From a virus: a DNA stretch of 41,775 nucleotides. Location of the stretch: positions 1 to 41,775 of IMG/VR virus record IMGVR_UViG_3300045107_000820. One strand, written 5' to 3'. Of the stretch, positions 850 through 14,062 are shown piece after piece; position 1 is the first letter of the stretch; each line of letters begins with the position of its first letter. Under the pieces are notes generated by a model, which saw nothing but the letters and a program-made list of their open reading frames with translations, was not told the DNA's origin and did no database searches. The translations under genes were made by a program, and so were the position numbers.

Positions 850-1284
850 TTAAATAAAGTCCCTTTCCACTCTCATGACAACAGCAAAGACCTGAAGGTC
901 TTCGGTTGCGACACGAATGTCTTTGAATCTCGGGTTGCTGGACTTCAGATGAATCGAGCCGTGCGACGCTACGATCACCCGCTTGATGGCAGGGCCGTCC
1001 GGAAGTGTTACCAAAAAGGGTAACCCGGAAAACTTTTCAATTTCTTGCCGCTCAAAAATCCGATAGCAAATTGCCCAGTCTCCTTCGAAGATTCTATCGC
1101 CTTCCATTGAGCTTCCCTGAACTCGAACTACAGTAGTGCGTGTCCCTGTAAGGTCGGCTTTGAGCGGACGAATTTCCCGAAATCCTTTGAGGGCCATCCA
1201 CTCACTGGGAAGGCCACAGGAAGCAAAGCCCCAGATCGGGGCCAGAATCGTTACGTTTTTGTTTTCTTCTGCATTGAAGCCCAT
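850..1284 (-). CDS. Stand-alone S24 (LexA/UmuD-like) autoprotease, probable half of a split phage repressor
   Basis: The 144-residue protein carries the S24 peptidase pattern without a DNA-binding domain. It has a Cys-Gly cleavage site (FASCG, C23-G24), a catalytic Ser in GSSMEGD (S59) and a catalytic Lys in PAIKR (K101). LexA-fold proteases of this family cut themselves when stimulated by RecA filaments. The layout (C23-G24, S59, about 140 residues) resembles UmuD, but there is no UmuC gene here and the gene follows an HTH repressor, so a repressor role is preferred. The ATG has a good ribosome site (GGAGG, 4 bases before the start). It overlaps the upstream HTH gene by 34 bases in the -1 frame. 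Confidence 0.85.
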   Translation of the reverse strand: MGFNAEENKNVTILAPIWGFASCGLPSEWMALKGFREIRPLKADLTGTRTTVVRVQGSSMEGDRIFEGDWAICYRIFERQEIEKFSGLPFLVTLPDGPAIKRVIVASHGSIHLKSSNPRFKDIRVATEDLQVFAVVMRVERDFI

Positions 1285-1685
1285 ATGTCCTCCGCCGAGA
1301 GAATAGGGACAGGGATCATGCCTTCAGTTTGGTAAGGGACAGGCTCGAACCCCAGAGTCCCCTCTGGCTCTCTCATCTTTTCGTTCTCTTCTGCGAATAC
1401 TTGCCGCGCTACTCGGCGGGCAATTTTTTCTATTTCTTCAACCAGGGGCACGGTTGAAGGAAACGGTTCTCCGCGTCCGCTGACCAGCCAGTCGAGTGAA
1501 GCACCCGTTGACTCTGCGATGATGGCCAAGACTTCGAGTCCGGGCATTTTTCCGTCGCGCCATTGGTACACAGCCTGCTTTGTAAGTGAAAACTGGCGTG
1601 CGATTTGAGGTGCAGAGTCAGTTTGCAGTAGACCGCACAGGCGACCCCAAAAACCAGCTTCGTCAATGAATGGTTTACTTTTCAA
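1251..1685 (-). CDS. HTH phage repressor (CI-like DNA-binding protein)
   Basis: The 144-residue protein has an N-terminal XRE/CI-type helix-turn-helix at about residues 16-55 (SAPQIARQFSLTKQAVYQWR), followed by the typical ITGASLDWLVSGRGEP-like segment seen in CI repressors and then an acidic/basic helical linker. The ORF ends just where the S24 domain of a full-length CI protein would begin; that domain is encoded by the next, overlapping gene. The start is TTG at 1683-1685; no ATG exists in a sensible position and no strong ribosome site is visible, so low expression or an ATT start 15 bases upstream is possible. It is transcribed leftward, divergent from the Cro-like gene, and probably maintains lysogeny by binding the 1673-1740 repeats. 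Confidence 0.85.
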   Translation of the reverse strand: MKSKPFIDEAGFWGRLCGLLQTDSAPQIARQFSLTKQAVYQWRDGKMPGLEVLAIIAESTGASLDWLVSGRGEPFPSTVPLVEEIEKIARRVARQVFAEENEKMREPEGTLGFEPVPYQTEGMIPVPILSAEDIWASMQKKTKT

Positions 1686-9745: not shown

Positions 9746-10696
9746 ATGGCTGCAAATAGCAAAATCGAATGGACCGACCACACTTTCAATCCCTGGATCG
9801 GCTGCACGAAGGTCAGTCCTGGCTGCGCCAACTGTTATGCCGAATCCGAAAACAATCGGAGGAAGTGGGCGGTGGAAGGCTGGGGGCGGGGCAAACCGCG
9901 CCACCGTACCTCGCAATCGAACTGGGACAAGGTCTACTCCTGGAACGCCCAAGCGAAGAACGCTGTCGAGCGTCCGCGCGTTTTCTGCGCCAGCCTCGCG
10001 GATTGGCTCGACAATGAAGTTCCGATTACTTGGCTTGCGGACTTACTTCTCCTGATCGACCAAACGCCAAACCTCGACTGGCTGTTGCTCACGAAGCGGC
10101 CGGAGAATTTCGAGCCAAGGATGCAGGCCATCTTCGACAGCGGTATTGCCGATTGCCGGGTCATCGTACCGGACCTCTGGCTGAACCATCGTCGGCCACC
10201 GGAAAACGTCTGGTTCGGTGTAAGTGTCGAGGTCCAGCAGCGTGCCAACGAGAGAATTCCCGAGTTGTTGAAAATTCCGGCTCGTCTCCGATGGCTTTCC
10301 TGTGAGCCGCTTTTAGGGCCACTCAATCTTGAGCAAGTCTACTCATCCTACGGGACAATCTACGACGTCCTCTACGGCTATGAGATGGGAATGGGCGGAG
10401 GTTTCCAAGCCAATAAAATCGACTGGGTTGTTGCAGGAGGCGAGTCTGGCCCCAATGCCCGTGGCCTCGATTCAATTTGGGTGCGGTCCCTTCGGGATCA
10501 GTGCAAGCGGAACAAGACACCCTTCTTCTTCAAACAATGGGGTGAATGGCTTCCACCTGGGCAAAGCTTCCCCGCGAACGATCAGGACGCTTTCCGACTC
10601 CAGTTCGAAGGCGAGGAGTATCGAAAACTCGGAAAGAAGCTGACGGGCCGACTTCTCGATGGCGTCGAACACAACCAGTTCCCGGAGGTGCATTGA
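9746..10696 (+). CDS. Phage Gp37/Gp68 family protein (DUF5131)
   Basis: The 316-residue protein begins with the family hallmark IEWTDHTFNPWIGC, followed by the cysteine cluster GCTKVSPGCANCYAE (C-x5-C-x2-C). Later conserved parts include LLTKRPENF, ENVWFGVSVE, WLSCEPLLG and WVVAGGESGP. The fold is thought to resemble the radical-SAM/spore photoproduct lyase group, with the cysteines binding an iron-sulfur cluster; the reaction is not known. The usual three-Cys-motif partner (TcmP) is not seen next to it; an HExxH protein follows instead. The length is normal. Confidence 0.88.
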   Translation: MAANSKIEWTDHTFNPWIGCTKVSPGCANCYAESENNRRKWAVEGWGRGKPRHRTSQSNWDKVYSWNAQAKNAVERPRVFCASLADWLDNEVPITWLADLLLLIDQTPNLDWLLLTKRPENFEPRMQAIFDSGIADCRVIVPDLWLNHRRPPENVWFGVSVEVQQRANERIPELLKIPARLRWLSCEPLLGPLNLEQVYSSYGTIYDVLYGYEMGMGGGFQANKIDWVVAGGESGPNARGLDSIWVRSLRDQCKRNKTPFFFKQWGEWLPPGQSFPANDQDAFRLQFEGEEYRKLGKKLTGRLLDGVEHNQFPEVH

Positions 10697-11138
10697 GACG
10701 AGTGAAGAAAAATTCCAATTCAAATTTCACGATAGTGCGCGGTCAATCGTCCTGGCCTATTGGCACCCGATGCTTGAGGGCTGGGAAGAACACTGCGAAG
10801 ACATTCTCGACGTCGAGATTGAAGGCGAGACGGCTGACGGGGCAGTGGTCACCAGCAACATCGGTGCTCAAGTGGTCGCCACTGAAAAGATGGGCTACTG
10901 GGGTTTTGCGGAAACCTGGGCGACTCCTCCGGTCATTCATCTCTGGGTTTCGCCGGGCGCAGCGCCGGAGGACGTGGTCGAGTTGATCGGTCACGAACTC
11001 GGTCACATCACTGGCACTCCGGCGGCCGACGACATCGAGGAGGAGTTACGCGCCCACGAATATGGACAGGTGGCGCGGTCGGCCTTCGAGGCACTGAAAC
11101 TTATCGAAGAAAAAAGGAAGGAGCCGGTCCTGGCATGA
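10659..11138 (+). CDS. HExxH zincin-like early protein
   Basis: The product is 159 residues if it starts at ATG 10659; an ATT at 10692, which overlaps the previous stop and follows GGAGG, is an alternative giving 148. It contains HELGHITG, an HExxH zinc-site motif, and about 20 residues later EELRAHEYG, which could supply the third ligand. The size and motif recall ImmA/IrrE-type or other minimal metallopeptidases. ImmA proteins cleave phage or ICE repressors, which would make sense beside so many regulators, but the substrate is unknown. The stop overlaps the start of the next small gene. Confidence 0.6.
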   Translation: MASNTTSSRRCIETSEEKFQFKFHDSARSIVLAYWHPMLEGWEEHCEDILDVEIEGETADGAVVTSNIGAQVVATEKMGYWGFAETWATPPVIHLWVSPGAAPEDVVELIGHELGHITGTPAADDIEEELRAHEYGQVARSAFEALKLIEEKRKEPVLA

Positions 11139-11266
11139 AGTTCGCCGTTGTGCGCTGGATGCGCTTTCGGGAGACCCGGCTGGGCTGGTTCATCCGGCGA
11201 AAGAGGCGGCGAGACCCGAGACCGTACTTCGAAGCCGTCCAGAGGATTTATCATCCCTTCGACTGA
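11135..11266 (+). CDS. 43-residue basic protein, unknown
   Basis: ATG at 11135 overlaps the TGA of the HExxH gene (ATGA) and an AAGGAAGGAG stretch lies upstream. The product is very rich in Arg (WFIRRKRRRDPRP near residues 18-30) and ends YHPFD. It is the last gene before the early-operon terminator at 11318. A nucleic-acid-binding role is possible from charge alone. The short length limits certainty. Confidence 0.45.
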   Translation: MKFAVVRWMRFRETRLGWFIRRKRRRDPRPYFEAVQRIYHPFD

Positions 11267-11317
11267 TGAACCCAATCGACCACTTTCCCGATTTGGTTTC
11301 CAAACGTAGAAACATTC

Positions 11318-11346
11318 GCCGGAGGCTCCGAGCCTCCGGCTTTTTT
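11318..11346 (+). terminator. Rho-independent terminator of the early operon
   Basis: A perfect 10-bp GC-rich stem (GCCGGAGGCT at 11318-11327 with AGCCTCCGGC at 11331-11340), a three-base loop and six Ts. It closes the run of early genes from 1758. Confidence 0.93.
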
Positions 11347-11459
11347 GTGCTAGAAACTGAAAAACACAAAAAGAACTGGAATTTTTTGCAGCCTGTCGTG
11401 CCTGGGCTTTGCCCCCGGTTTCGAAAAAAACAACGCTCCGCATTCACCAGGGACAATAC

Positions 11460-12299
11460 ATGCTGAAAACTTGGGAGGCCCGACGCCTCGAAACAGTGCT
11501 TCAGAATGGCAAAACCAAGCCACTCGTCATTGAATGTGTTCGGTCGTCCATTTTTGAAAATGGTGATACCGATCTTGACCCTTCAAAAGTAAAAAAACTC
11601 TTTGTCGTCAAATCAACTGGGAATCCTGAAATCCATGAAGCTTCATTATTCTGTGAACTTTTTGGGAACATTTTGGCAAGGGATCTCGGGATCAACACCC
11701 CCGAACCTGTTTTGGTGAATCTCAGTCCGGAATTTATCCAAAGTCTTACTCTGGTTTCTTTGCCTTCAGGTTTGAGGTTGAGGCCGGGCCTTGCCGCTGG
11801 ATGTGAATTTATTCCGAGGCTTACTCAGGTTGTTCCTGGCTCATTTCTGAATGATGACGAGTTGAGCCAGGCATTTAGAATTTTGGCCTTCGACCTTTTA
11901 ACGCAGAATCCAGATCGAACCAGAGAGAAGGCTGACGGCGTGGGTAACGGGAACGTGAATTGTGCTTCTCGATCCGGTAAGCTGCTGGCATTTGATTTCG
12001 AGCTGTGCTTTTCGTTTCTTTACGCCTTGAGCTTTGGAAAGAATCCAAAGCCTTGGCAGGTCTCGAAACTGCCCTTTGCCCGTTCCCATGTTTTCCGTAT
12101 CCCTCTTCAAGACCGAACCCTTGATCCGGAAGATTTTCTTTCTCGCCTGAAGGGACTGTCCGTGGCCCGGCTGACTGAGCTATCTTCTTCGATCCCGGAA
12201 TCTTGGTGTTCGCGTTTCCCGGAAGTTTGTTCCCATATCAGCCAAGTCGCGAAGAATACTCCCCAATTCGAAATTGAACTGCGGAGGTGTCTGAAATGA
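11460..12299 (+). CDS. HipA-like kinase (HipA_2 type)
   Basis: The 279-residue protein has kinase-like features of the short HipA_2 family: an ATP-site Lys in LFVVKSTGN, a Glu in HEASLFCELFG, a catalytic-loop-like LLTQNPDRT with the Asp, a downstream NGNVN, and a metal-site-like LAFDFE. Related HipA toxins phosphorylate glutamyl-tRNA synthetase; the target of this short class is unknown. ATG 11460 is preceded by AGGGA; upstream in-frame codons lie in the spacer after the terminator. It overlaps the DUF3037 gene by four bases. The pair is visibly AT-richer than the phage backbone, suggesting separate acquisition. No HipB-like HTH antitoxin is adjacent. Confidence 0.75.
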   Translation: MLKTWEARRLETVLQNGKTKPLVIECVRSSIFENGDTDLDPSKVKKLFVVKSTGNPEIHEASLFCELFGNILARDLGINTPEPVLVNLSPEFIQSLTLVSLPSGLRLRPGLAAGCEFIPRLTQVVPGSFLNDDELSQAFRILAFDLLTQNPDRTREKADGVGNGNVNCASRSGKLLAFDFELCFSFLYALSFGKNPKPWQVSKLPFARSHVFRIPLQDRTLDPEDFLSRLKGLSVARLTELSSSIPESWCSRFPEVCSHISQVAKNTPQFEIELRRCLK

Positions 12300-13171
12300 A
12301 ACTTTTCCCTTACACGTACTGCGTGGTTCGATATGTTCCTGATTCTGCTGCTGGTGAAATGCTCAATGTAGGAGTCGTGATTTCTTGCCCTGATCTGGAG
12401 TATCTCGGGGCAAGGTTTGAGCATCGCTATGAGCGACTTTCTCATGCATTCGCTGGATTTGACGGCTCTCACTACAAGCGCGTGCTTCAACACTTTGAAC
12501 GTGCGCTGGAAAAATTACACGAACGCCAGGCTCCACTTCTTTTCGTGATTGAAGAAAAAAAGTTTCCAGACGCGAGGGAAGCGACGATGCGGCTTTGGAG
12601 CGATTCGGATTTGGCTTTTCAGGTTGGCCCTGTCCTGGCCGGAATTTCAGAAGATCCCGTTTTGGCATTGCAAGAGGTCTTCGACCGAATGGTTGGAGTT
12701 AACAATTTATCTCATCGGTCTGAAAAGCGGACGGATGAAGATGTCTGGAACTCCGTTTACCGAAAGCCCCTCGTGAACTTTCGGTTGCAGGGCAAGCTGC
12801 ACCCCTGGACTCTGGCGGGAGAAGATTTTGAATTTAAGTTTGACTTTACTTTCCAAAACGAAAAGCGGCACATCCTTGAGCCAGTTTCAATGGATTACGT
12901 TCAAGGGGACTGGATGCAGCGTAAGGCGACCCTTTTATTGGGAAGTGCCGCAGCGATGAGTGGGCATCCTGATTTGGGGGTTCGTTACCTTTTAATGGGA
13001 AGGCCACGAAGAGATGAGCTGCTGAATGCCTATGACCGGGCCAAAAACATCCTCCACAAGATGCCCGTAAAGCATGAGATTATCGAGGAGGACGGGGCTG
13101 AAGATTTCGCCCGATTCTTGATGAGCTATATGCGTGAGCACGGAATCCTTGAGGAAGAAGTTGTTGAATAG
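12296..13171 (+). CDS. DUF3037 protein, partner of the HipA-like kinase
   Basis: The 291-residue protein has the DUF3037 opening: YTYCVVRYVPDSAAGEMLNVGVV, in which Tyr, Arg, Glu and Asn-Val-Gly are typical, followed by a long alpha/beta region. DUF3037 genes are regularly found next to short HipA-like kinases, and the ATGA overlap here shows the same pairing. It may be the kinase's substrate, inhibitor or sensor; its biochemical role is not known to me. ATG 12296 was chosen over GTG 12287 because GGAGG lies eight bases before it. A terminator follows at 13211. Confidence 0.72.
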   Translation: MKLFPYTYCVVRYVPDSAAGEMLNVGVVISCPDLEYLGARFEHRYERLSHAFAGFDGSHYKRVLQHFERALEKLHERQAPLLFVIEEKKFPDAREATMRLWSDSDLAFQVGPVLAGISEDPVLALQEVFDRMVGVNNLSHRSEKRTDEDVWNSVYRKPLVNFRLQGKLHPWTLAGEDFEFKFDFTFQNEKRHILEPVSMDYVQGDWMQRKATLLLGSAAAMSGHPDLGVRYLLMGRPRRDELLNAYDRAKNILHKMPVKHEIIEEDGAEDFARFLMSYMREHGILEEEVVE

Positions 13172-13188
13172 GCTAAAGAGCCTGAGGA

Positions 13189-13209
13189 AACAGGCCGGAG
13201 AACCGAAAC
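13189..13209 (+). repeat. 21-bp repeat, copy 1
   Basis: An exact 21-base match to 14012-14032 (begins AACAGGCC, ends CCGAAAC). Both copies lie directly in front of near-identical terminators, so the whole unit of about 50 bases is duplicated around the 13292-14013 genes. Confidence 0.95.
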
Positions 13210-13210
13210 A

Positions 13211-13238
13211 GAAAGCCCGCCCTAACTGGCGGGCTTTC
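13211..13238 (+). terminator. Terminator after the HipA-like/DUF3037 pair
   Basis: A perfect 11-bp stem, GAAAGCCCGCC (13211-13221) with GGCGGGCTTTC (13228-13238), and a six-base loop. The A-run on one side and T-run on the other would let it work in both directions. Confidence 0.85.
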
Positions 13239-13243
13239 TATGT

Positions 13244-13249
13244 TATAAT
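13244..13249 (+). promoter_or_regulatory. Candidate -10 box for the 13292 gene
   Basis: An exact TATAAT lies 43 bases before the ATG at 13292 and just after a terminator, where a new promoter would be needed. No good -35 element stands 16-18 bases upstream, so it is only a candidate. Confidence 0.4.
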
Positions 13250-13291
13250 TCAAGACAAGAAAATTATCTTTTGAGTATATCGGAGAAAGAC

Positions 13292-13768
13292 ATGAAGATT
13301 TCATCAGACTCGATTTTGAACTATGCAAAGACCCAAAAGGGGCAGAGTGTAAAAGTTCTGGACCTCGAGGTAACTTACAACAGCGAAGGTAACGACACTT
13401 TTAACTTTGGTGGACCAATGGAATTGTTTGAAAAACATGCTCAGAAACAAAGGGTACCTCTTCCTTGGCCACAATCGGTATCTGTAGGCATTTATTTGGG
13501 GCGGGATTATGTAAAGTCAGTGCTTGATTGTGTTCCTTTTCTTGAAACCTTTGAGGTTGAAGATTTTGTCAAAAAAGTACGTGAAGAAGGGAAAGCTCAG
13601 GTTTTGTTTCTTGAGGGAGCTTGCAAGGATGGATTTTTTGTATTCACGAACACTTTGACCGGTGAATCCCAAAATGCTCAACATTCAACTGTCAAATTTG
13701 AGGTTTTGATTTCTTGGGTTGAGTCACAATTAAGTCTTATTGAATCCGATTTCGGTTGGCGGGGGTAA
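13292..13768 (+). CDS. AT-rich orphan gene, unknown
   Basis: The 158-residue product starts at ATG 13292, six bases after CGGAGAAA; the TTG at 13271 is less likely. The protein is soluble and mixed alpha/beta, with no motif I recognise. Its base composition is clearly AT-richer than the phage backbone and similar to the HipA-like/DUF3037 pair. It lies between two copies of a repeated 21-bp/terminator unit and has its own TATAAT, so it looks like an independently transcribed cargo gene (moron). No function is proposed. Confidence 0.65.
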   Translation: MKISSDSILNYAKTQKGQSVKVLDLEVTYNSEGNDTFNFGGPMELFEKHAQKQRVPLPWPQSVSVGIYLGRDYVKSVLDCVPFLETFEVEDFVKKVREEGKAQVLFLEGACKDGFFVFTNTLTGESQNAQHSTVKFEVLISWVESQLSLIESDFGWRG

Positions 13769-13827: not shown

Positions 13828-14013
13828 ATGACCAGCCAAGCCGAAGCCCGTTACGACCAGAACCTCGAAGCCGCAATCGCCAACGTCGAGGAAATCCTCG
13901 AAACCCTCAAGAGGAAGAGAAGAGCGGATTCCGATATTATCAACTGGGGGCACGTCGGGGACGCGGCGCATGCCCTCCAGCTTTCAAACGAGATGAAGGA
14001 GAGCCTGACGTAA
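13828..14013 (+). CDS. Small helical protein, unknown
   Basis: The 61-residue product starts at ATG 13828, ten bases after AAGGAG. It is predicted to be nearly all helix (NLEAAIANVEEILETLKRK) and ends shortly before the second repeat/terminator unit. Composition is closer to the phage backbone than to the preceding gene. A 6-bp inverted repeat (GGTGTA...TACACC, 13781-13804) lies before its ribosome site. Function is unknown. Confidence 0.55.
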   Translation: MTSQAEARYDQNLEAAIANVEEILETLKRKRRADSDIINWGHVGDAAHALQLSNEMKESLT

Positions 14014-14032
14014 CAGGCCGGAGAACCGAAAC
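14012..14032 (+). repeat. 21-bp repeat, copy 2
   Basis: Exact copy of 13189-13209, again immediately before a terminator hairpin of the same stem sequence. Confidence 0.95.
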
Positions 14033-14062
14033 GAAAAGCCCGCCGGAGACGGCGGGCTTTTC
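14033..14062. terminator. Bidirectional terminator between convergent genes
   Basis: A perfect 12-bp stem, GAAAAGCCCGCC (14033-14044) with GGCGGGCTTTTC (14051-14062), and a six-base loop. It lies between the rightward 13828 gene and the leftward 14466 gene and has A/T runs on both sides, so it can serve both. Confidence 0.9.

Follow-up and report, generated by a model that had tools for sequence, protein, structure and literature searches.

Accessory cargo of a Mu-like phage: a HipAD/PDC-M66-type kinase–DUF3037 gene pair whose kinase has an insert in its catalytic loop

Two recent studies describe the closest known systems. A HipA-like/DUF3037 pair located beside Retron-Sda1, named PDC-M66 by PADLOC, was dissected in 2025 (PMC12548924). 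Without the kinase, defence against phage Bas51 was lost; loss of the DUF3037 gene was toxic; and the retron parts proved dispensable. The PDC-M66 pair was shown to defend on its own, with its kinase neutralised by the DUF3037 protein. The DS-6 system of Escherichia coli, composed of a HipA-related kinase and a DUF3037 partner, was validated independently and renamed HipAD (PMC13092281). Defence was lost when a predicted catalytic residue of the DS-6 kinase was mutated, and in AlphaFold3 predictions the two proteins bind one another as well as DNA. For the earlier discovery of the system, that paper refers to its authors' work on defence systems of E. coli prophages (Brenes and Laub 2025).

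We analysed a viral DNA stretch of 41,775 nt (IMG/VR record IMGVR_UViG_3300045107_000820, hereafter the window), which carries a gene pair of the same architecture (Table 1). An earlier note, made from the letters alone, had read the locus as a HipA_2-type kinase gene overlapping a DUF3037 gene at ATGA, lying between two terminators in DNA richer in AT than the phage backbone and with no adjacent HipB-type antitoxin, and each of these observations was borne out. Both reading frames are open and full length, with ATG starts that agree with those of homologues, and they overlap at 12296–12299. The proteins match Pfam HipA_2 (PF20613; E=5.7e-12, 45.8 bits) and DUF3037 (PF11236; E=7.6e-16, 58.8 bits), above the curated cut-offs of 27 and 22.6 bits. 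GC content is 0.477 in the kinase gene and 0.491 in the DUF3037 gene versus 0.597 in the whole window, and GC3 is 0.47 and 0.51 versus 0.70–0.83 in phage core genes. No HipB-type antitoxin was matched by Pfam among the five genes scanned (9746–13768). Terminator-like hairpins are present on both sides: the upstream one came from a terminator scan, and the downstream one (13212–13237), which that scan did not report, was read by eye and is also listed as a repeat arm. No convincing promoter was found upstream of the pair.

Table 1. Coordinates of the gene pair, its borders and the catalytic-loop insert in the window
Feature	Position	Strand	Details
HipA_2-type kinase, candidate toxin	11460–12299	+	279 aa; Pfam, PADLOC, predicted fold
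DUF3037 protein, candidate antitoxin	12296–13171	+	291 aa; Pfam, PADLOC, model
Catalytic loop D152 to N167 with 8-residue insert ADGVGNGN	11913–11960	+	spacing count
Terminator-like hairpin with T run, upstream cassette border	11318–11340	+	10-pair stem, then TTTTTTGTGC
61-nt repeat ending in terminator-like hairpin, downstream cassette border	13177–13237	+	
Second 61-nt repeat copy, at end of gene 13828–14013	14000–14060	+	85%

The first copy of the 61-nt repeat sits after the DUF3037 stop codon, and the two direct copies flank gene 13292–13768. They may reflect a past recombination that brought the cassette in, or a duplicated gene end that the cassette replaced. The flanked gene is AT-rich (GC 0.405) and encodes 158 aa; between the hairpin and this gene, close to the latter, comes TGTTATAAT, which resembles an extended −10 element. 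We dropped this gene as a candidate third component: it matched no family, and searches of plasmids and of 386 Acidobacteriota genomes gave no relative.

Both proteins align along nearly the full length of PADLOC models: the kinase with PDC-M66A (E=6.6e-46; residues 1–278 on profile positions 9–269 of 270) and the DUF3037 protein with PDC-M66B (E=1.5e-50; residues 6–283 on positions 4–279 of 281). On sequence similarity, the window pair belongs to the described HipAD/PDC-M66 kind, and the suggestion in the earlier note of an undescribed system falls, both proteins matching the PDC-M66 models and the PDC-M66 and DS-6/HipAD pairs having already been published. Nor is the pair new to phages, since each of the two proteins already has a PHROGs family. 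The likeness to PDC-M66, including the Retron-Sda1 pair, is drawn through the PADLOC models; unlike the latter, the window copy resides in a Mu-like phage and has no retron neighbour, and its kinase differs from PDC-M66 in an eight-residue insert in the catalytic loop. The likeness to DS-6 is one of architecture (a HipA-related kinase and a DUF3037 partner, no HipB) and, going by the citation in the DS-6 paper, extends to a link with E. coli prophages, the window pair being phage-borne as well. DS-6B also carries DUF1829, whereas the window DUF3037 protein has no DUF1829 match and has a C-terminal half predicted to be nuclease-like. The HipAD system and its occurrence in phages are thus already known, and what is unusual here is the catalytic-loop insert.

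The phage, of a soil type, is Mu-like: it encodes a MuA-type transposase (phrog_310, E=2e-66), a MuB-type protein (phrog_296, E=3.5e-33) and a terminase, matches GemA weakly and has a CI/S24 repressor region. The repressor region (850–1685, minus strand) consists of two overlapping ORFs, one with a CI-type helix-turn-helix and one with the S24 peptidase part, rather than a single gene. Gene 9746–10696 encodes a DUF5131 protein that hits two PADLOC candidate models, PDC-M30B and PDC-M41B, as well as PHROG 2045, so the gene may be widespread among phages. Related phages were reached by a terminase search (the transposase search gave no close phage), which yielded six viral contigs with terminases 50%–53% identical to that of the window. 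The kinase/DUF3037 pair had no match in these six contigs, including G405, G406 and G407. In G405 and G407 the genes on either side, GemA and lysin, are both present, whereas three of the six contigs are too short or divergent in the region to be judged alone. G405 has the gene order MuA, MuB, GemA, lysin, terminase. Its GemA–lysin interval spans 0.8 kb, compared with 4.2 kb filled by other genes in G407 and ∼5.9 kb, with the pair inside, in the window. The missing matches and the differing intervals indicate that the pair is variable cargo and not part of the phage core. This agrees with the earlier note's reading of cargo in a transposable phage and makes a conserved, essential structural part of this phage family very unlikely. 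The host is probably a member of the Acidobacteriota. The locus adds a transposable phage, one that probably belongs to this phylum, to the carriers of HipAD, and it supports a picture of prophages with exchangeable defence genes.

Scans with alignments were used to survey HipA_2–DUF3037 pairs, and relatives of the pair turned up on plasmids, in the genomes of cellular organisms and on viral contigs. The alignments were needed: scanning the viral contigs with either protein alone gave no relatives, as did tblastn of both proteins in a phage collection. Across loci L003–L027, every long-type DUF3037 gene has a HipA_2 sequence directly upstream, often with an ATGA overlap, with the kinase reading frame apparently short in three (L006, L013 and L026). 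In the Hymenobacter plasmid copy (L004:3992–4840), a stop codon interrupts the DUF3037 gene. Both genes were present in eight out of 10 viral loci; in the remaining two, the DUF3037 gene lies at the contig end (L113) or no kinase was found (L115). Viral pairs occupy accessory-type sites, with neighbours, mostly read by eye, that include an integrase-like gene (L118) and a repressor-like gene (L112). On two viral contigs (L109 and L114) a probable type I restriction-modification locus, again read by eye, precedes the pair. The closest relatives of the window pair are three chromosomal copies in Acidobacteriota, 44%–47% identical and set among ordinary genes.

The kinase is confidently predicted to adopt a fold of the HipA/CtkA/PI4K kind, which upholds the earlier reading of a kinase (pLDDT 83, pTM 0.86). 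The model matched CtkA (Z=15.3 over 217 residues), PI4KII (Z of about 14) and HipT of the Legionella HipBST system (8ezr/8ezs; Z=12.2), a small kinase of HipA-type fold. The partners of HipT are HipB and HipS, whereas that of the window kinase is DUF3037; HipAB of E. coli likewise shares a HipA-superfamily kinase, by family and fold, but has a HipB antitoxin. A sequence search of solved structures returned no match for either window protein. All five core residues (K51, E66, D152, N167 and D179), which we take to bind ATP and metal, are present in the window kinase and kept in all aligned relatives. The spacing from D152 to N167 is 15 in the window kinase versus seven in 22/22 relatives counted, owing to an insert that is in frame and loop-like; model confidence drops to about 72–74 at residues 151–170. 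Because the insert occurs in no compared relative, the kinase may be weak or inactive, and with the five core residues kept, its activity is uncertain. It is conceivable, if rather unlikely, that the insert sets this HipAD apart in function, by altering the substrate, by acting as a brake within the kinase or by leaving the kinase inactive and working through binding. As a natural variant, the insert can be used to ask how far the catalytic loop of HipA-type kinases may be altered.

The model of the DUF3037 protein (pLDDT 84, pTM 0.58) comprises the DUF3037 domain (residues 8–133) and a C-terminal domain (145–285), whose mutual placement is uncertain given the pTM. The best fold matches of the C-terminal domain are restriction-endonuclease-like (BstEII, Z=8.2; Cdn1, Z=8.0), but values of about 8 are weak and within the range of common arrangements, so that the protein has no strong fold match. 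E195-P-V stands in place of the usual ExK motif, from which our guess is that the nuclease-like fold is non-catalytic. This region of the protein has been described as similar to a retron-associated DNA-binding protein (PMC12548924), and a DNA-binding, autoregulatory role would be in keeping with that similarity.

Taken as a whole, the pair is likely to be a HipAD (PDC-M66) toxin–antitoxin-type anti-phage system, borne by a Mu-like phage with Acidobacteriota as its probable hosts. By analogy, the window copy would work like its published relatives. In a lysogen, the two proteins would be made together, as the ATGA overlap suggests, and the DUF3037 protein would bind the kinase and hold it inactive. 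Infection by a competing phage (superinfection) would presumably release the kinase, which would then phosphorylate a cellular target, stopping growth and aborting the infection. The insert, the lack of a convincing promoter and the modest identity to even the nearest relatives, which sit among ordinary chromosomal genes, are points against this reading.

The insert also bears on whether the pair is a decayed or altered HipAD, in which the kinase has been weakened or abolished and the pair survives as a remnant or in a binding-only role. Its uniqueness among the 22 relatives counted and the lower model confidence around it favour such decay, but the two open, full-length frames, the retained core residues and the in-frame, loop-like nature of the insert speak against it, and we consider it unlikely. 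In a lysogeny-persistence (addiction) module, the chief effect of the pair would be to stabilise the prophage or to slow its host, with defence secondary; against this, a phage that integrates by transposition depends less on addiction. Published relatives, moreover, give phage defence (PMC12548924, PMC13092281); the toxin–antitoxin behaviour of the PDC-M66 pair (PMC12548924), the phage location and a composition like that of the repressor region point the other way, and on balance we find addiction as the main role improbable. Least probable by far is that the pair serves the phage in its structure or in packaging. A distant HipA_2–DUF3037 clade does adjoin terminase and portal genes in Acidobacteriota chromosomes, but the window pair falls in another clade, retains the catalytic Asp, diverges in composition and is missing from related phages; the clade placement and this absence largely refute a structural role.

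The distant clade is of interest apart from the HipAD-type pair. A certain terminase-like gene was found in 35 of 396 sampled Acidobacteriota genomes, and in 33/35 a DUF3037 match lies 2.1–2.8 kb away (loci L090–L093; genomes G321, G138, G218, G241 and others). Where read, the order is terminase, HipA_2, DUF3037 (L091 and L092), and a portal gene then follows (L090 and L092). The arrangement resembles a conserved cluster of phage-like or gene-transfer-agent-like kind that includes a pseudokinase, suggesting a second role of the HipA_2–DUF3037 pair in phage-like clusters. Its kinases have Asn at the position of the catalytic Asp in all nine aligned members (9/9).
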